From contig JAHDFQ010000027.1 of the NCBI GenBank assembly GCA_020628085.1, forward strand, positions 1 to 36,805: a DNA stretch of 36,805 bases. Reading direction: 5' to 3'. Shown here one piece after another: positions 7,025-14,925 of this stretch. How positions within the stretch are numbered: position 1 is the first letter of the stretch; every line of letters begins with the position of its first letter. Under the pieces are notes generated by a model. That model did not search any database, was not told the origin of the DNA, and saw only the letters and a list, made by a program, of their open reading frames with translations. The translations under genes and the position numbers were made by a program. Source of the stretch: Saprospiraceae bacterium. Its GTDB lineage: Bacteria > Bacteroidota > Bacteroidia > Chitinophagales > Saprospiraceae.

Positions 7025-10000
7025 ATGAAAATCGTAAAAAGATTATTATTCGCACTATTTGCTATTGTCATTTTGCTGCTCGTCGCAGCCGTAGCGATTC
7101 CTTATTTTTATAAAGATGAAATCATTGATTTTGCGAAAGTTGAAATTAACAAACAAGTCGATGCCGAAGTGGATTTTGGCGATGTGAGTTTGTCGCTGTT
7201 TCGTTCCTTCCCAGATTTTAGTTTTGGTTTAGCTGATGTAAGTGTGATTGGTAAAAATGAATTCAAAGGTGTTCCGTTGACGACCATTAAGAACTTTGAT
7301 ATGACGCTCGATTTTTGGTCGGTCATCAGTAGTTCTGATCCTATACAAGTGAAAGGGATCAATTTAGATGAACCCAATATTAATGTTCAAGTTTTACGAA
7401 ATGGAAAAGCAAATTATGATATTGTTGCCCCTTCCGATACCACCACAACAGAATCAAGTGGAGATTTTTTAATCAGCCTCGACCACTACTCTATCTCTGA
7501 TGGAAATTTGGTGTATAATGATAAAGCTGGTGATATTTTCCTAGAAATAAAAAACCTAAACCACTCAGGATCAGGTGATTTAACGGCGGCTGTTTATGAT
7601 TTAAATACGGAAACATCTATTGATAAATTGACGGCAGCAAGTGGCGGAGTTACCTATTTAAGTCGTGCCAAAGCACGTTTAGATGCAATTTTTAATATTG
7701 ACATGAATACATCAACTTATACGTTGAAAGATAATGATCTGCGTGTAAATGCGCTACAAGTCAAAGCTGACGGATATGTTCAAATGCCGAACGACGATAT
7801 TAATATGGATATTAAATTTTCTGCACCTAGCAACCAATTCAAAGACTTTTTGTCTATGATTCCTGGTGCTTATGTAGAAGGGTATGAAGATGTTAAAGCA
7901 GATGGCCAAGTTAAATTTAACGGTTTTGTAAAAGGTACTTTTAATAGCGAAAAAGAAGAAATGCCCGCTTTCAGAATTGACTTGAATGTAGCAAATGGTT
8001 CCGTTCAATATCCAGATTTACCTTTAGGTATCAATGGTATTCAAACCACTGCTTCGATTAATAGTCCGAGTAGTAATTTGGATAAAATGCAAATTGATGT
8101 CCCAACTTTTAAAATGTTATTAGCCAATAATCCATTAGAAGCATCGCTAAAACTACGCACTCCTATTTCTGATCCAGATATAGATACGAAAGTGAAAGGA
8201 CTTATTAATTTGGAAGACTTCTCAAAGACATTTCCAATGGAAGGTGTCAAAACCTTAAATGGATTAATTGACGCTGACTTTATGATGAAAGCCCGTTTAT
8301 CGCAATTGGACGGTGGCGATTATGAAAACGTTAATATGGCTGGTGATTTAAAGATCACAAACATGGATTATGTTGCAGAGGGGTTACCTGAAATTATCAT
8401 TAAACAAATGGCAATGGATTTTACACCTCAATTTGTCAATTTGAAAGGTTTTGATGCCTTGTTGGGTAAAAGTGATATTAAAGCGAGTGGAAAAATTGAT
8501 AATATTTTGGCTTATTTCTCACCCGAAAAAACAATGAAAGGGACATTCAGTATGCGTTCTGATCTGTTTGATGCCAATGAATGGCTCACCGAGGAGGAAA
8601 CAACCGAATCAACACCCACTACTAGTCCAGATTCTGAACTAACAAATGATGAAGAAATATTTGATCGCTTCGATTTCACAGCAGATGCCCGGATAGGAAA
8701 ATTGATTTACGATATCTACGAATTGGATAATAACATTGCCATTGGTCACTTTACCCCAAATAAAATGATGATCGACCAGTTTGAAACTAAAATCGGAAAA
8801 AGTGATCTAAAAGGAGACGGAACAATTACTAATGTGTTCAACTATTTGTTTGATAACGAAACCCTGGGAGGTGAAATTAATATTCGATCCAATTACTTTG
8901 ATTTAAATCCGTTTATGGTGGCCGAAGAAGAAGGGGAAGCCAAGGCCGTTCCAATTAAAAATGAAGAAGAAGCCCTAGAACCAATCATCATTCCAGAAAA
9001 TATCAATATGGTTATTCACTCTAATTTTAAAGAGTTGATTTATACCAACATGGATTTAAAAAATGTCAAAGGGGATTTAGTGGTAGCCAATCAAGAAGCT
9101 CGAATTGAAAATGGTACGATGCAAACGTTAGGTGGAAATTTCGATATTGCGGGTGGTTACAATACACAAAATACGGAGAAACCTCAGTTTGATATGGATT
9201 TTGCTCTAAGCAAATTAGACATTCAAAAAGCGTTTAACACCTTTAATTCATTTCAGGCATTGGCTCCAATTGGAAAATTTATTGAAGGAAAGTTCAATTC
9301 AACGCTCAAAATGAAAGGCGTTCTGGGTAAAGATATGATGCCCGATTTATCGACCTTATCCGCTGATGGATTTATGCACACTTTAGATGCGATTGTCAAA
9401 AATTTCAAGCCACTCGAAGCCATTGGTCAAAAGCTGAATATGGATGCTTTTAAAACCATGAAAATCAAAAATACGAAAAACTGGTTTGAGATTAAAGATG
9501 GTCAAGTTGAGGTCAAGGAATTTCCGTTTGAAGCTAAAGGCATTGATATGTTGGTTAAAGGAACACATGGCCTGAATCAAGATATGGACTACTCTATCAA
9601 AGCCAAAATCCCTAGAGATTTATTAAGCAAAACAGGTGTTGGAAATGCTGCCGATAAAGGCATTGGTTTCTTAAATAGTCAAGCCTCTAAATTGGGTGTC
9701 AATCTGGATGTTGGGAAATTCATTAATGTTTTAGTTAGTTTGGGTGGATCCATTACGAGTCCAAAAATTTCAGTGAAACCGCTAGGTGCTGATGGTGAAG
9801 AAACCTCCATTAAAAACGTGGTTGAAAATGTAAAGGAGACAGTTAAAGACACGATCAATAAGATAAAGGAAGAAAAAATTGCGGAAATAAAAGAAGATTT
9901 TAGTGCCAAGAAAAAAGAATTATCTGATGAAATGAATGTTAAGGTTGATAAAATTCTCGCCGATGCTAAAAAACAAGCTGACCGTGCAAAAGCAGAAGCT

Positions 10001-10255
10001 GTAAAACTAGCAGATCAAGCACGAGATAAAGCGTATCAAGAAGCAGACGCCGCAGCCGATAAAGTCAAAAATCCGTTAAAAAAACTAGCTGCAAAAGAAG
10101 CCGCCAAAATAGCCAAAAACCAAGCAGATAAAGTTCATGCTAAGGCAGTAGAAAAAGCAGAGAGTCAGCACGCCTCTATTATGAAAAATGCTGAGCAACG
10201 TGCTGATAAAACACGTAGTGAATATCAGGAAAAGATTGATAAGTTGGGTTCGTAA
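7025..10255 (+). CDS. AsmA-like inner-membrane protein with C-terminal coiled coil
   Basis: A 1076-residue AsmA-family protein. One membrane helix (about residues 5-28) anchors it in the inner membrane. The long periplasmic part has the AsmA/DUF3971 pattern of repeated amphipathic beta strands with recurring segments such as IKVSGKIDN, LKGDGTITNV and FDIAGG. Related proteins (AsmA, TamB, YhdP) form periplasmic bridges that carry lipids towards the outer membrane; a lipid-transport role here is inferred from the family. The last 130 residues (about 945-1076) are an Ala/Lys/Glu-rich coiled coil that the core family lacks. It lies 83 bp upstream of parB, which has its own promoter match. Confidence 0.85.
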   Translation: MKIVKRLLFALFAIVILLLVAAVAIPYFYKDEIIDFAKVEINKQVDAEVDFGDVSLSLFRSFPDFSFGLADVSVIGKNEFKGVPLTTIKNFDMTLDFWSVISSSDPIQVKGINLDEPNINVQVLRNGKANYDIVAPSDTTTTESSGDFLISLDHYSISDGNLVYNDKAGDIFLEIKNLNHSGSGDLTAAVYDLNTETSIDKLTAASGGVTYLSRAKARLDAIFNIDMNTSTYTLKDNDLRVNALQVKADGYVQMPNDDINMDIKFSAPSNQFKDFLSMIPGAYVEGYEDVKADGQVKFNGFVKGTFNSEKEEMPAFRIDLNVANGSVQYPDLPLGINGIQTTASINSPSSNLDKMQIDVPTFKMLLANNPLEASLKLRTPISDPDIDTKVKGLINLEDFSKTFPMEGVKTLNGLIDADFMMKARLSQLDGGDYENVNMAGDLKITNMDYVAEGLPEIIIKQMAMDFTPQFVNLKGFDALLGKSDIKASGKIDNILAYFSPEKTMKGTFSMRSDLFDANEWLTEEETTESTPTTSPDSELTNDEEIFDRFDFTADARIGKLIYDIYELDNNIAIGHFTPNKMMIDQFETKIGKSDLKGDGTITNVFNYLFDNETLGGEINIRSNYFDLNPFMVAEEEGEAKAVPIKNEEEALEPIIIPENINMVIHSNFKELIYTNMDLKNVKGDLVVANQEARIENGTMQTLGGNFDIAGGYNTQNTEKPQFDMDFALSKLDIQKAFNTFNSFQALAPIGKFIEGKFNSTLKMKGVLGKDMMPDLSTLSADGFMHTLDAIVKNFKPLEAIGQKLNMDAFKTMKIKNTKNWFEIKDGQVEVKEFPFEAKGIDMLVKGTHGLNQDMDYSIKAKIPRDLLSKTGVGNAADKGIGFLNSQASKLGVNLDVGKFINVLVSLGGSITSPKISVKPLGADGEETSIKNVVENVKETVKDTINKIKEEKIAEIKEDFSAKKKELSDEMNVKVDKILADAKKQADRAKAEAVKLADQARDKAYQEADAAADKVKNPLKKLAAKEAAKIAKNQADKVHAKAVEKAESQHASIMKNAEQRADKTRSEYQEKIDKLGS

Positions 10256-10293
10256 TTTGGCATTGATATTCGTTAGGTTGAATAGAAAATTGA

Positions 10294-10301
10294 TATATTT
10301 G
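10294..10301 (+). promoter_or_regulatory. Candidate -7 promoter element of the parB operon
   Basis: TATATTTG matches TAnnTTTG. The expected RNA start is near 10307, about 32 nt before the parB ATG. No good TTTG is found 19 bp upstream, so support comes from the -7 element and its position only. Confidence 0.45.
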
Positions 10302-10338
10302 TATGCTTTTAAGTTAACAAACATATTTATACAACAAC

Positions 10339-11241
10339 ATGGCTAAGAAAGTTAAGAAAAAAGAATTGGGTTTGGGTATTCGGGCGTTACTGTCCAATAT
10401 TGATACCCAAGTGGAAGATAATAAGGAGGAAGTTGTCAAAGAATTATCTAGTGCAGTAGCGATGATTCCGATTGACCAAGTGAATGCCAATCCTGAACAA
10501 CCTCGTAAAGATTTTGAAGCAGAACCTTTAGAGGAACTTTCTGAATCTATCAAAATACATGGATTAATTCAGCCGATTACGCTACGTCGAATGAACGACA
10601 AATCGTACCAGTTAATATCTGGAGAACGTCGTTTAAGAGCTTCAAAAATGGCAGGATTGAAAGAAGTGCCCGCCTATGTTCGTATAGCCAACGATCAAGA
10701 AATGCTCGAAATGGCACTGATCGAAAACATCCAACGAGAAGCACTGAATCCAATGGAAATTGCATTTACCTACAGTCGTCTGTTGAAAGAATTTGAGCTA
10801 ACACATGGCGTTTTAGCCGAACGTGTTGGTAAAAAACGAAGTACGGTGACGAATTTTATCAATCTATTGGATTTGCCACCTTCTGTACAAACGGCTTTAA
10901 AAAACAAACAAATTTCAACTGGTCATGCCAAGGCATTGAATGGTGTCAAAGATATTGGTTTACAACTGGCTTTATTAAAGAAAATTATAAACGAGCAGCT
11001 ATCGGTTCGAGCAACTGAAAACTTAATAAAAGCTCAAAAAGAAGCAGGAAATACCGTCAAAAAAACTACAAAAACCAACCTTCCGACGGAGTACCAACAC
11101 ATTCAAGATAATTTAAGTCATCATTATGGTGCAAAAGTAATCTTAAAATTAGACCCTAATAAAAAAGAAAAAGGTCAAATTACCATCAATTTTAGCGATA
11201 CCGAAGAACTCAATCGTTTGTTGGATATGATGGGACAATAA
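10339..11241 (+). CDS. parB: Chromosome-partitioning protein ParB
   Basis: A ParB/Spo0J-type CTP-dependent DNA clamp that loads at parS sites and organises the origin region. The N-terminus has a basic stretch followed by ELGLGIRALLSN, the conserved ParA-contacting segment. The ParB/N core includes NPEQPRKDF (51-59) and the CTP-binding motifs GERRLRA (95-101) and ENIQRE (129-134). A helix-turn-helix (about 155-178, TVTNFINLLDLP) and a C-terminal dimerisation region follow. The length of 300 residues is typical. ParA, usually directly upstream, is absent; an AsmA-like gene occupies that place. parB is followed after 8 bp by a zinc-finger gene, then a flavoprotein, then DUF5683. Confidence 0.93.
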   Translation: MAKKVKKKELGLGIRALLSNIDTQVEDNKEEVVKELSSAVAMIPIDQVNANPEQPRKDFEAEPLEELSESIKIHGLIQPITLRRMNDKSYQLISGERRLRASKMAGLKEVPAYVRIANDQEMLEMALIENIQREALNPMEIAFTYSRLLKEFELTHGVLAERVGKKRSTVTNFINLLDLPPSVQTALKNKQISTGHAKALNGVKDIGLQLALLKKIINEQLSVRATENLIKAQKEAGNTVKKTTKTNLPTEYQHIQDNLSHHYGAKVILKLDPNKKEKGQITINFSDTEELNRLLDMMGQ

Positions 11242-11249
11242 TTAACAAA

Positions 11250-11528
11250 ATGGCTAAGCTAAAACCCAAAAAGTGTTCACATTTATCTGAAATTACGGAT
11301 TTCAAACAGCCTCAATCGTATGAATGTGCAACCTGCATCAAAACTGGCGATACTTGGGTGCATCTCCGTACTTGTCAGTCTTGTGGTATCACACTTTGTT
11401 GCGATAGTTCACCTAACCAACACGCTACTAAACATGCTAAAACCCACCATCATCCAGTTATTATCTCTGCTGAACCTAACGAACGTTGGATGTGGTGTTA
11501 TGAAGACAAAATCATCTCCAAATATTAA
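11250..11528 (+). CDS. UBP-type zinc-finger protein
   Basis: A 92-residue protein that is essentially one ZnF-UBP domain. The metal-ligand pattern is CSH (Cys9, His11), CATC (26-29), CQSC (42-45), Cys50/51, then His58, His62 and the His-rich HHH at 66-68, followed by the family's WMWCYEDK end. In eukaryotes this fold binds the free C-terminus of ubiquitin. Bacteria lack ubiquitin, so the ligand here is unknown. The gene ends 2 bp before the flavoprotein start. From memory, this pair is recurrent in bacteria, with the zinc finger next to a thioredoxin-reductase-like enzyme, which suggests that the two proteins work together. It is presumably co-transcribed with parB. Confidence 0.87.
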   Translation: MAKLKPKKCSHLSEITDFKQPQSYECATCIKTGDTWVHLRTCQSCGITLCCDSSPNQHATKHAKTHHHPVIISAEPNERWMWCYEDKIISKY

Positions 11529-11530
11529 AC

Positions 11531-13159
11531 ATGAAAGATCCTCGTTTTCCTGAATTAACCAATGCTCAAGTTAAAAAACTAAAAGAATACGGAGAAGTAG
11601 AGCATTTCGATGAGCCAACCAAAGTGTTTGCGCTCGGCGATCATTTATATGACTTTTTTGTAATTCTAAAAGGTGCAATTGATATTGATGATCCGTATAA
11701 TAAAAGTAAAATTGTAACACATAACAAGTTTGAATTCACAGGAGATAGTGGTATGTTGTCCAACAGAGGCGCACAGTTTCATGCCATCACACACCCTGAT
11801 ACCAGCCTTTTGCGCATTAAACCTAATCGCTTAAAAGAAGCTATTGCCAAGCATAGTGATATTAGCGATTTGTTGCTCAACGCTTTTTTATTAAGACAAC
11901 AAACCGTTTTAAATGAAATTTCTGGCGGTATAAAACTCGTTGGTTCTGGAAACTCTAAAGCAACCTATGTGATTCGGGATTTCCTAGAAAAAAATCATGT
12001 TTGGCATACGTTCATTGATGTAGATTCGGATCAAGATGCAGGTGAATTATTAGAAAATTTTAATCTTAAACACGATGATCTACCCTTATTAATCAACAAC
12101 GATGCAACGGTTTGTAAAACGCCTTCGATTCCTCAATTGGCTCGTTATAGTGGCGTTTTGATGGATTTTGAAGAAAAAATCTTTGACGTTTTGGTCATCG
12201 GTGCAGGGCCGGCAGGCTTAGCTGCTAGTGTTTATGCTGCTTCTGAGGGATTGAGTGTGGTAACGATTGATAGTAGTGCGCCAGGTGGTCAAGCAGGTAA
12301 GAGCTCAAAAATTGAGAATTATCTCGGTTTTCCAACAGGTATTTCTGGAATGGATTTAGCCAATCGTGCTTATGTTCAAGCTCAAAAATTTGGTTGCAAT
12401 ATTTCGATTCCGCACCGTGCTAAATACTTAGAACGAAAAGAAAATCACTTTACTGTCTGTGCAACGAACGATCGAACTATTAAGTCCAAAGCGGTTATTG
12501 TAGCTACTGGAGCAGATTATCGTCAACTTCCATTAGATAATATTGGTGATTATGAAGGAAGCGGCGTTTATTATTCAGCTACAGGTATGGATGTGAGTAA
12601 TTGTAAAGATGAACCTGTTGTTATCGTTGGTGGTGGAAATTCAGCTGGTCAGGCCGCTATATTTTTGTCAAAATACGCCAAAACAGTATCCGTAATGATA
12701 CGTGGGAATGATCTGGGTAAAAGTATGAGTGATTATTTGGTTCAACGACTCGAAGCGACCAGCAATATTGAAATTCTACATAAAACACAGGTCACAAAAC
12801 TATCTGGAGATCATCATTTGGAATCTATTACGATCAACCAAGACGGCACTGAACGAGAAATGCAACTGTCTAATTTATTTTCATTTATTGGAGCGCAACC
12901 CAACACCAAATGGATGGGTGACCACGTTATAACAGATGACAAAGGGTTTATATGTACGGGCTTGTATTTGAAAGAATTAGAATATGAAAAATGCCAGATT
13001 TATGAACAACGTCAACCTCAATCATTAGAATCAAGTATTCCTGGCATTTTTGCAGTTGGAGATGCTCGCCATGGTTCTGTAAAGCGAGTGGCGTCGGCGG
13101 TTGGTGAAGGTTCAATGGCTGTCAGTCAAGTACACCAATATTTAGCAGAATTAAATTAG
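11531..13159 (+). CDS. cNMP-binding-like/thioredoxin-reductase-like flavoprotein lacking CxxC
   Basis: A 542-residue fusion with three parts. Residues 1-125 look like a cyclic-nucleotide-binding domain (KVFALGDHLYDFFVILKGAI). Residues 140-212 look glutaredoxin/thioredoxin-like (ATYVIRDFLEKN, then DLPLLI and TPSIPQLARYSG). The rest is a thioredoxin-reductase-type flavoprotein with FAD motif GAGPAG (224-229), PGGQAG (251-256), NADPH motif GGGNSA (367-372) and the final FAVGDAR (507-513). The redox CxxC of true TrxR is replaced by SATG at 349-352, so it cannot be an ordinary thioredoxin reductase. The electron acceptor is unknown. Cyclic-nucleotide control is possible, but the phosphate-binding residues are not clearly conserved. 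Confidence 0.85.
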   Translation: MKDPRFPELTNAQVKKLKEYGEVEHFDEPTKVFALGDHLYDFFVILKGAIDIDDPYNKSKIVTHNKFEFTGDSGMLSNRGAQFHAITHPDTSLLRIKPNRLKEAIAKHSDISDLLLNAFLLRQQTVLNEISGGIKLVGSGNSKATYVIRDFLEKNHVWHTFIDVDSDQDAGELLENFNLKHDDLPLLINNDATVCKTPSIPQLARYSGVLMDFEEKIFDVLVIGAGPAGLAASVYAASEGLSVVTIDSSAPGGQAGKSSKIENYLGFPTGISGMDLANRAYVQAQKFGCNISIPHRAKYLERKENHFTVCATNDRTIKSKAVIVATGADYRQLPLDNIGDYEGSGVYYSATGMDVSNCKDEPVVIVGGGNSAGQAAIFLSKYAKTVSVMIRGNDLGKSMSDYLVQRLEATSNIEILHKTQVTKLSGDHHLESITINQDGTEREMQLSNLFSFIGAQPNTKWMGDHVITDDKGFICTGLYLKELEYEKCQIYEQRQPQSLESSIPGIFAVGDARHGSVKRVASAVGEGSMAVSQVHQYLAELN

Positions 13160-13163
13160 ACTT

Positions 13164-13868
13164 TTGAAACATTTACTATCCATATTACTGATTTTTATTT
13201 CAATGAGTATCCATGCTCAAACGGATACGATTCAGATTGATTCTAGTTTAGTAAAAGTAGACAGTCTCAATATGGATTCTTTAATTTTGGATTCCTTAGC
13301 TATTGATTCTTTAAACATTAATGATAAAAAAGAGAAAAAAGAAAAGAAAAAAGGACTGATTTATCGCTTTAGAGATAAACGGTATCCGAATCCGACCCGC
13401 GCAGCTATTTTTTCGCTACTCATTCCTGGTGCAGGACAATTTTATAATAAGAAATACTGGAAAATGCCCATTGTTTATGGTGCTTTAGGTGGGTTGACCT
13501 ATTTAGCTATTGTTCAAAACGATGAGTATCAATTATATAGAAGAGAATATGCATTCATGGTGGATGATGATCCTTTGACTATTAGCCGATTTGAAGGTAG
13601 GGCAACTGCTCAGACGCTCAAATCAATTCGAGATGTAGCAGACAAACGCCGTCAAAATGCTGTGGTCGGAATTGTAGCTGTGTGGTTGCTCAATTCCGTG
13701 GATGCCTATGTAGATGCACACTTAAAAGACTTTGATGTGAGTGAAGATTTGACTTTAGATTTAACGCCCACTACACATTACGATGTGGTTTCTAGGCAAC
13801 CCTTATTTGGATTTTCTGTTGGTCTTGTAGCAAAAAAAGAAACACCAAAGTCCTTCTTATCTCAATAG
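13164..13868 (+). CDS. DUF5683 membrane protein
   Basis: A 234-residue DUF5683 protein. The start is a TTG 4 bp after the flavoprotein stop. Starting at the next ATG (13203) would remove the signal peptide MKHLLSILLIFISMSIHA, so I accept the TTG. After the signal comes a low-complexity D-S-L repeat segment (about 25-53) and a Lys-rich stretch. Then comes the DUF5683 core RYPNPTRAAIFSLLIPGAGQ with FYNKKYWKMP and two membrane segments, the second ending in LLNSVDAYVDAHL. The function is unknown. In many Bacteroidota, as I recall, this family directly follows parB (parA-parB-DUF5683-dapB-lepB); here two genes are interposed. Confidence 0.85.
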   Translation: MKHLLSILLIFISMSIHAQTDTIQIDSSLVKVDSLNMDSLILDSLAIDSLNINDKKEKKEKKKGLIYRFRDKRYPNPTRAAIFSLLIPGAGQFYNKKYWKMPIVYGALGGLTYLAIVQNDEYQLYRREYAFMVDDDPLTISRFEGRATAQTLKSIRDVADKRRQNAVVGIVAVWLLNSVDAYVDAHLKDFDVSEDLTLDLTPTTHYDVVSRQPLFGFSVGLVAKKETPKSFLSQ

Positions 13869-13872
13869 AAAA

Positions 13873-14925
13873 TCAGGTAGATTTTTCCAAAGTAAACCCA
13901 AAAGTTGAACCCAAATCTGGTGTTGAACGCACATTAATCGTTTGTTGATGTGCTTCTATAATATGTTTCACAATAGATAAACCAAGCCCCGAACCACCTG
14001 CAATTCGAGATCGACTTTTATCTACCCGATAAAAACGATCAAAAACATGTGGAATATCTTCTTCTTTAATTCCAATGCCGTTGTCTGCAATTTCTACTAA
14101 AATATGTCGATCCATATCATAAAAAGAGACTTTCGTAACGCCATTTTTTTTTCCATATTTTATTGAATTGGTAATCAGATTAACAAATACTTGACGTATA
14201 GATTCAATGTCAGCATTCACCAAATAATGACGGTCAGCACCTTCTTTGAAAATCAAATCAATATGGTTATCATTTGCCATGATTTCCAATTCTTCCATCG
14301 CAGATTGCGCTAATTCTCGAATATCAAACACCCCTTTTTCAAGCATCAATTTTCCTGATTCCAGCTTCGAAATAGTATCCAAATCTTCCACAATGACTTG
14401 TAATCGTTCGGTGTTTTTTGCGGCACGTTGTAAATAATTTTGATTGATATTTTCGTCATACAATCCACCATCCAACAGCGTATGTATATAGCCTTGTATA
14501 TTGAATATAGGTGTCTTCAATTCGTGAGAAACATTTCCTAAATAATCCCTTCGATATTCCTCCAATGACTTTAAATATTGAATTTCATTTTCTTGATTTT
14601 CTACCCATTCTGAAACCTCTTTTTCTACGTCATCAATAATTCGTTCATTAATATCTGTTAATGCTAGTTTATCTCCTTTGGCACGTTTAAAACGGTGGAT
14701 ATTTTTATAAATTAATTTGATCCGTCGATAAATAAAACGACGTACAAAGTACATAATGATGAGATAAGTTACACTAAAAAATAGCAAAGCAGCAGCAATA
14801 AAAACTCCAAGATTTGTAGCGATAAACGTATAATTCCAAAGCAAACTATTGCAAATCAAAAAGGCAATCAATACGAAAAGAGCAGTAATTAAAGCTACTT
14901 GGCGAGTTGTAGGATTTTTTAACAT
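13873..14925 (-). CDS. PhoR-like sensor histidine kinase
   Basis: A 350-residue transmembrane histidine kinase. Two N-terminal helices (about 10-30 and 37-60) are separated by only about six residues, so there is no extracellular sensor domain. A short linker follows, then the dimerisation/phosphoacceptor helix NVSHELKTP with His134. The ATPase domain shows the N box (NLITNSIKYGKKNG), G1 (DNGIGI), the F box (DRFYRVDKSRSR) and G2 (GGSGLGLSIVKHI). The partner is the regulator immediately upstream: the stop codon of the regulator overlaps the kinase start at 14925, which implies translational coupling. Its signal is unknown; such short kinases usually sense membrane state or other membrane proteins. 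Confidence 0.9.
   Translation of the reverse strand: MLKNPTTRQVALITALFVLIAFLICNSLLWNYTFIATNLGVFIAAALLFFSVTYLIIMYFVRRFIYRRIKLIYKNIHRFKRAKGDKLALTDINERIIDDVEKEVSEWVENQENEIQYLKSLEEYRRDYLGNVSHELKTPIFNIQGYIHTLLDGGLYDENINQNYLQRAAKNTERLQVIVEDLDTISKLESGKLMLEKGVFDIRELAQSAMEELEIMANDNHIDLIFKEGADRHYLVNADIESIRQVFVNLITNSIKYGKKNGVTKVSFYDMDRHILVEIADNGIGIKEEDIPHVFDRFYRVDKSRSRIAGGSGLGLSIVKHIIEAHQQTINVRSTPDLGSTFGFTLEKST

Follow-up and report, generated by a model that had tools for sequence, protein, structure and literature searches.

A UBP-type zinc finger and a thioredoxin reductase-like flavoprotein without CxxC: a candidate redox-signalling module in a Saprospiraceae parB operon

What might a bacterium do with a zinc finger of the ubiquitin-pathway type encoded next to a thioredoxin reductase-like protein that lacks its redox cysteines? 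Two adjacent genes raise this question in a stretch of DNA of 36,805 nucleotides (hereafter, the window) from a Saprospiraceae bacterium (assembly GCA_020628085.1, contig JAHDFQ010000027.1). The first gene (11250..11528, + strand) encodes a UBP-type zinc finger protein of 92 residues. The second (11531..13159, + strand) encodes a flavoprotein of 542 residues, in which a cyclic nucleotide (cNMP)-binding-like domain, a cysteine-free glutaredoxin-like domain and a thioredoxin reductase (TrxR)-like domain without CxxC follow one another. Both open reading frames (ORFs) are as the initial annotation of this DNA had called them, and they lie between parB and a gene for a DUF5683 protein. We judge it somewhat probable that they constitute a laterally acquired two-gene redox-signalling module, in which a sensor-controlled, non-thiol NAD(P)H flavoprotein would be partnered by a finger acting as a peptide adaptor.

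Co-occurrence of the finger and the flavoprotein

The initial annotation had coupled the two families, a reading that rare co-occurrence elsewhere would have refuted; co-occurrence was borne out in a draw of Bacteroidota genomes and in relatives. We scored one draw of 392 Bacteroidota genomes, using the curated Pfam cut-off as the threshold for the finger and E 1e-60 or better for the flavoprotein. At most 15 finger and three flavoprotein candidates were scored per genome, making both counts lower bounds. Left out were G023 and G131, whose scores do not reach the curated cut-off, and a further zinc finger candidate in the window's own genome (contig C70), a weak match with two internal stops. 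The finger was found in at least 38 of the 392 genomes, the flavoprotein in at least 55, and both in at least 34. Counted by genus, the flavoprotein is present in 19 of the 23 finger genera, compared to 36 of all 179 genera; counted by family, it is present in 11/12 finger families, compared to 22 of 57 overall, the figure of 57 being read from group codes. Fisher values, uncorrected for phylogeny, are 4e-30 by genome, 2.5e-12 by genus and 3.6e-5 by family. The genes also tend to be neighbours: of 39 finger places, 24 have a flavoprotein on the same strand no more than 2.6 kb away, in both gene orders and across nine families, although 15 of these 24 belong to one family (f24). Among 60 relatives, the flavoprotein was seen in 13 and the finger in four, all of which also have the flavoprotein.

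On plasmids of other phyla, a flavoprotein lies near the finger in 8 of 16 finger loci read, these 16 having been hand-picked from 87 records for spread, some with flavoprotein proximity already known. The nearby flavoprotein is intact in L052, L123, L124, L128, L130, L132, L133 and L137, absent from L126, L127, L129, L131, L134, L135 and L136, and a broken remnant in L125. Two plasmid flavoprotein loci, L053 and L054, show no finger. As judged by these counts, the two families are associated, and the pairing of their genes recurs in bacteria rather than being peculiar to this genome.

The remnant is on a Hymenobacter plasmid (L125:4489-5703), where the finger gene is followed by a partial flavoprotein match (query residues 248-531) that runs over hypothetical ORFs and is probably a broken copy.

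Domains and missing cysteines of the flavoprotein

Residues 217-542 (12179..13156; all features of the pair are on the + strand) make up a TrxR-like FAD/NAD(P)H domain, with a Pfam match to Pyr_redox_2 at E 6.6e-35. The two-domain FAD/NAD(P)H fold is present in its model, which matches 5mh4 with a VIA Z of 36.4 and a root-mean-square deviation (rmsd) of 1.7 over 300 residues; the best Foldseek matches are AhpF, then TrxRs. Alignment places the motifs where they had been claimed, namely the FAD dinucleotide motif GAGPAG at residues 224-229 (12200..12217), the NAD(P)H dinucleotide motif GGGNSA at 367-372 (12629..12646), and SATG at 349-352 (12575..12586), the position of the TrxR redox CxxC. The loss of CxxC, however, is not peculiar to the window protein, since no Cys occurs at 349 or 352 in any of 61 homologues. 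These 61 rows score >200 bits to the window protein and were deduplicated by their last 80 residues, with near-identical rows remaining. The genome's own TrxR (L004), our positive control, reads CAVC at this position, indicating that CxxC is detectable by the alignment method. The commonest cysteine of the family, Cys358 (12602..12604), is C in 42/61 homologues and invariant in the 12 cNMP-type rows. In 16/61 it is F, which argues that Cys358 is inessential to the family.

A second cysteine motif is missing upstream. The proposal of a glutaredoxin-like middle held in part: residues 133-210, approximately (11927..12160), show a thioredoxin-like strand/helix order in models, but the window protein gives no glutaredoxin match at E 0.1. 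Profile matches come from relatives and are weak; L107 matches the mycoredoxin family TIGR02200 at E 1e-8, below cut-off, and PF00462 is matched by 5/24 members of alignment A3 and 1/12 members of alignment A1. The glutaredoxin CPxC site reads S-K-A-T in the window protein (142-145; 11954..11965) and S-P-x-S in the family consensus. Among the homologues, S142 is kept in 55/61, P143 in 38/61, and S or T at 145 in 53/61, with Cys at 142-145 in 0/61. The cysteines needed for thioredoxin reduction are absent from the flavoprotein. Because CxxC is lacking and the score against the TrxR equivalog TIGR01292 (227.6 bits) is under the cut-off of 343.45, the protein is, on sequence grounds, not a strict thioredoxin reductase, whatever it is annotated as elsewhere.

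Residues 1-132 (11531..11926; model m2c81fdd7f5de) are predicted to adopt a cNMP-binding fold. The best solved homologue by sequence for residues 1-214 reached only E 0.076, so fold comparison was used. An AlphaFold model of residues 1-213, built on five sequences, has a mean predicted local distance difference test score of 78, and its VIA match list is taken up by the cNMP domain (residues 7-132). Within this model, the cNMP domain matches 5h5o at Z 16.0 (rmsd 2.4 over 122 residues), followed by CRP and channel domains at Z near 13. The N-terminal cNMP fold, on which the initial annotation had staked its reading, thus withstood the comparison. All 12 cNMP-type homologues in alignment A1 match PF00027 at E 0.1 or better, the best at 6e-20. 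The phosphate-binding cassette of cNMP domains has a motif that includes Gly, acidic and Arg positions, seen in the window protein as G71, D72 and R79. In the cNMP-type rows, Gly71 and an acid at 72 are each kept in 12/12 and Arg79 in 10/12, the other two being near-identical Rhodococcus rows with Gln. A cyclic nucleotide could be available as the predicted ligand, given that the genome has four guanylate-cyclase-domain places, on three contigs.

Conservation and likely role of the zinc finger

The finger matches zf-UBP (PF02148; Pfam) at E 6.6e-11 and 42.7 bits, above the cut-off of 22.7. By sequence, its nearest solved homologue is 2ida (E 1.1e-21), labelled a hypothetical protein, which we take to be bacterial. 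In 49 bacterial finger rows (those >45 bits, many from one family), C26, C29, W36, H38, R40, C42, C45, C50, C51, D52, S54, H58, H62, H68, E78 and W80 are invariant. The zinc-ligand Cys/His positions of the predicted finger are thus conserved in 49/49, and positions 82 and 84 are aromatic in every row.

The initial annotation had put forward a free protein C-terminus as the ligand. Under that hypothesis, some bacterial protein, whether or not it resembles ubiquitin, would be bound at its free C-terminus by the finger and modified or reduced by the flavoprotein. The finger fold, which is that of ubiquitin C-terminus binders, speaks for it, as do the unvarying W36 and W80 and the aromatic residues at 82 and 84. 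So does the context of the pair in Rhodococcus, where plasmids L130 (1-6406) and L052 (1-7629) encode, in one direction, grpE, a J-domain protein, cbpM, clpB, trxA, the finger and the flavoprotein, with dnaK before grpE in L052; this is a protein-quality-control setting. In fingers of the HDAC6 and USP5 type, the CGRY arginine is the contact that holds the ubiquitin tail. The HDAC6 CGRY arginine falls, in a weak alignment (E 0.02), on Ser53 of the window finger, at a position that, in 48 of the 49 rows, is S in 40, Q in 5, N in 2 and D in 1, which argues against membership in this ubiquitin-C-terminus-binding type. No ubiquitin-like gene is named in the annotated neighbourhoods, in which no search aimed at one was made. 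Furthermore, the fingers of USP20 and USP33 do not bind the ubiquitin tail but internal peptides (PMC13376213). We therefore regard the free C-terminus hypothesis as unlikely. With Ser at the site of the CGRY arginine (albeit by weak alignment) and with internal peptides taken by USP20 and USP33, a role as peptide-binding adaptor seems at least as likely for this finger as that of a binder of free C-termini, and probably likelier.

Sensor domains, kinases and antiporters in relatives

A tree of the flavoproteins, built by a quick method with support from the Shimodaira–Hasegawa-like approximate likelihood ratio test only, divides them into two clades. The clade that includes the window protein carries the cNMP domain in all 12 members scanned. 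Alignment A3 gives a different picture, as 22 of its 24 rows match the response-regulator receiver (Response_reg) and two match cNMP_binding; these two are presumably the first-clade proteins L128 and L133. Of 38 second-clade flavoprotein loci (L039-L051 and L059-L083), 32 have a histidine kinase close by, as judged from 1.5-kb flanks in which kinases are often only partly visible. All three neighbouring kinases that were scanned have the architecture cNMP+HisKA+HATPase. It appears that the sensor domain has swapped places between kinase and flavoprotein, which would argue that the sensor feeds the flavoprotein in both forms.

Another recurring neighbour is a Kef-type antiporter, which 22 of 30 finger loci (L009-L038, those kept from 42 places) have within 1.5-kb flanks. 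Its C-terminus is fused to the finger in four of the 22 and on one Deinococcus plasmid, and it is present in three of the four finger genomes that have no flavoprotein. Antiporters L108, L111 and L126 have KefC matches of E 5e-83 or better, under the equivalog cut-off. Operon L107 also includes a glyoxalase and an esterase, which fits electrophile stress. Classical Kef systems respond to such stress.

Antiporter L111 (4216-6594, − strand) has TrkA_N, TrkA_C and a C-terminal mycoredoxin-like domain with a single cysteine in the active-site loop; the flavoproteins have a domain of this type too, but free of cysteines. At L053:1-1850, an antiporter annotated as NhaA lies ~4 kb upstream of a flavoprotein of the family and shows a DsbA-like match at positions 51-503 of the locus. 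On a plasmid of Paraburkholderia dioscoreae, the pair is beside genes annotated Clp ATPase, Hsp20 and PsiE, a likeness to the transmissible locus of stress tolerance (PMC8290217). In the main text of that paper, the words 'zinc', 'FAD' and 'oxidoreductase' do not occur.

Arrival of the pair in the parB operon

The window gives a parB gene with Pfam ParB domains (10339..11241, + strand) just upstream of the pair and the DUF5683 gene (13164..13868, + strand; Pfam) just downstream. The spacing is as had been noted: 8 bp from parB to the finger, 2 bp from finger to flavoprotein, and 4 bp from flavoprotein to the DUF5683 ORF, which begins, with some uncertainty, at a TTG. We infer from the spacing that parB, the finger, the flavoprotein and DUF5683 would form one transcript.

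The initial annotation had treated the parB operon as a telling context, an idea that does not hold up. Of 19 relatives searched for DUF5683, 18 have this gene no more than 301 nt from parB and neither gene of the pair in between; the nineteenth (G398) gave no DUF5683 match. In the stretch covered around the second DUF5683 locus of G416, no parB is present. In two congeners, the parB and DUF5683 ORFs overlap by 8 bp or are 3 bp apart, and neither finger nor flavoprotein was found in these genomes, one of which is an assembly 86% complete. Given that the junction is without the pair in 18/19 relatives, the pair looks like an insertion, with parB and DUF5683 as the host-operon genes on either side.

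The affinities of the flavoprotein point the same way. It is 72-73% identical to the Polaribacter (L007) and G103 proteins, groups with these in a five-row clade with support of 100, and is distant in the tree from receiver-type proteins within its own family; its nearest kin are flavobacterial. In G182, a member of the same five-row clade, the finger and flavoprotein occur in the same order, with a 3-bp gap. The simplest reading, apparently, is that the pair arrived laterally as a unit. The parB context would then be incidental, an insertion site giving expression and no clue to function.

Could co-transcription with parB nonetheless be functional, such that the pair couples redox state to chromosome partition? 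The spacing of 8, 2 and 4 bp is what can be said for this idea. The congeners and the 18 relatives' junctions disfavour a functional tie, and parB is missing from the ORFs that surround the nearest flavoproteins (L103, L104, L105 and L007). We consider such a coupling very improbable.

A working model

We envision that the sensor domain switches the flavoprotein, by ligand in the window protein and by phosphotransfer in the two-gene version. Hydride would pass from NAD(P)H to FAD, and the flavoprotein would act without thiols, either donating electrons to a non-disulphide acceptor or altering its shape with redox state. The zinc finger, as a peptide-binding adaptor, would bring the flavoprotein to its clients, of which the commonest visible one in other classes of Bacteroidota is the Kef-type cation/proton antiporter. 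On the strength of this association, the module may control stress survival and, in antiporter lineages, ion transport under redox or electrophile stress.

Several observations weigh against this model. The finger is missing from 21 of the 55 flavoprotein genomes and, among the nearest relatives of the window protein, from G103, G391 and L007 (in 13.6 kb). Sensing is not universal, as the short flavoproteins L114, L119 and L124 have no sensor domain. The cNMP_binding (PF00027) score of the window flavoprotein itself is below cut-off (22.9 versus 27.5 bits), the predicted models rest on only 12 and 5 sequences, and about one third of the homologue rows are without Cys358. As for the antiporter, all 22 linked finger loci are outside the window's class (17 in f24, three in f30, one each in f42 and f54). 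Among the 30 loci, 0/7 of those from the window's class have an antiporter alongside; the window and G182 (L103) likewise have none next to the pair, and Pfam reveals no Kef antiporter among 15 window ORFs scanned. The genome's three PF00999 antiporters are on other contigs, with no finger or flavoprotein in the stretches covered, and the one scanned (L150) has its match in a K+/H+ antiporter family distinct from Kef.

Since the antiporter is absent from all seven finger loci of the window's class, the antiporter link may not hold for the window. For the same reason we give lower odds to a more specific version of the model, in which the cysteine-free glutaredoxin–TrxR flavoprotein, gated by its sensor, is an NAD(P)H switch for Kef-type antiporters, opening or closing them via the finger adaptor, with no ubiquitin and no thiols involved; this version is possible but doubtful. 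It would amount to a KefF-like control assembled from folds of the ubiquitin and thioredoxin pathways.

The observations on short flavoproteins also fit a plainer alternative, in which the flavoprotein is an ordinary CxxC-less TrxR-like oxidoreductase, of the ferredoxin/flavodoxin-NADP reductase (FNR) or the quinone/peroxide reductase type, with the finger a small companion and no signalling. TrxR-like FNRs share the low-Mr TrxR fold and the FAD and NAD(P)H sites and likewise have no CxxC, as a passage of PMC10294844 describes, and the window protein has a structural match to FNR2 (8c16; Z 30.1, rmsd 2.6). By sequence it is closer to TrxR/AhpF than to FNR, and it adds a sensor domain and the cysteine-free glutaredoxin-like domain. 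Regulation is indicated by the sensors themselves, cNMP in 12/12 (A1) and receiver in 22/24 (A3), together with the neighbouring kinase. We regard an ordinary oxidoreductase as an unlikely explanation.

Relation to known systems

Burroughs, Iyer and Aravind (2011, Mol Biosyst 7:2261) are reported to have assigned the ZF-UBP domains of bacteria to a novel redox signalling system that depends on cyclic nucleotides, a function unrelated to ubiquitin. What we see here, a ZF-UBP gene adjoining a cNMP/TrxR-type redox gene, corresponds to that arrangement, although the window copy differs in sitting in a parB operon. In view of this precedent, the two-gene module is probably a stress-signalling module of an already predicted kind rather than a new kind of system. 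The existing annotation names are 'UBP-type zinc finger domain-containing protein' and 'cyclic nucleotide-binding domain-containing thioredoxin-disulfide reductase'. Possibly new are the loss of both cysteine motifs throughout the family, the co-occurrence counts and the extent of the antiporter link. A search of titles and abstract openings found no paper that treats a UBP finger of bacteria together with this flavoprotein; as it did not cover the 2011 paper, it is no evidence of novelty. The system is not described in those passages of PMC1779556, PMC4506424, PMC8945050, PMC4999995 and PMC11354881 that matched our search terms.

Two other systems offer partial parallels. The window flavoprotein resembles AhpF, its top Foldseek match, and NTRC in having a thioredoxin-fold domain fused to a TrxR domain, which is the architecture of both, but both relay cysteine pairs are gone. 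The Kef parallel stems from those relatives that have a Kef-type antiporter beside the flavoprotein. KefC and KefB have ancillary proteins, KefF and KefG, that are flavodoxin-like; in the relatives, by contrast, the antiporter may be finger-tailed and its partner is TrxR-like, and no antiporter is seen beside the pair in the window or at the finger loci of its class.

The model would provide a concrete, testable role for a type of zinc finger common to bacteria and the ubiquitin pathway. It also suggests that the UBP fold may have served as a peptide adaptor apart from ubiquitin. If the model is true, a TrxR–glutaredoxin fusion in which the loss of both cysteine relays is conserved would be a clear case of a redox-enzyme scaffold turned regulator, one that possibly acts on ion transport under stress in some lineages.

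Neighbouring sequences and other occurrences of the finger

Positions 10000-14500 contain no RNA element that matches Rfam at gathering score. Anti-phage defence was considered and set aside, as neither protein matches PADLOC at E 1e-3. Over 7025-11241 of the window, the gene upstream of parB is not parA, which does not adjoin parB, but an ORF of 1,076 residues with no Pfam match at E 1e-3.

UBP-type fingers turned up in less expected places as well. One is encoded at L149:4938-5324 (+ strand) on a 54-kb IMG/VR viral contig, and a weak match (E 8e-6) occurs in the Tunturiibacter phage Tunturi_3; phages may carry the finger. In 14 control genomes, zf-UBP exceeded its cut-off in Deinobacterium chartae and in Methanosarcina acetivorans, and the finger may thus also occur in archaea.

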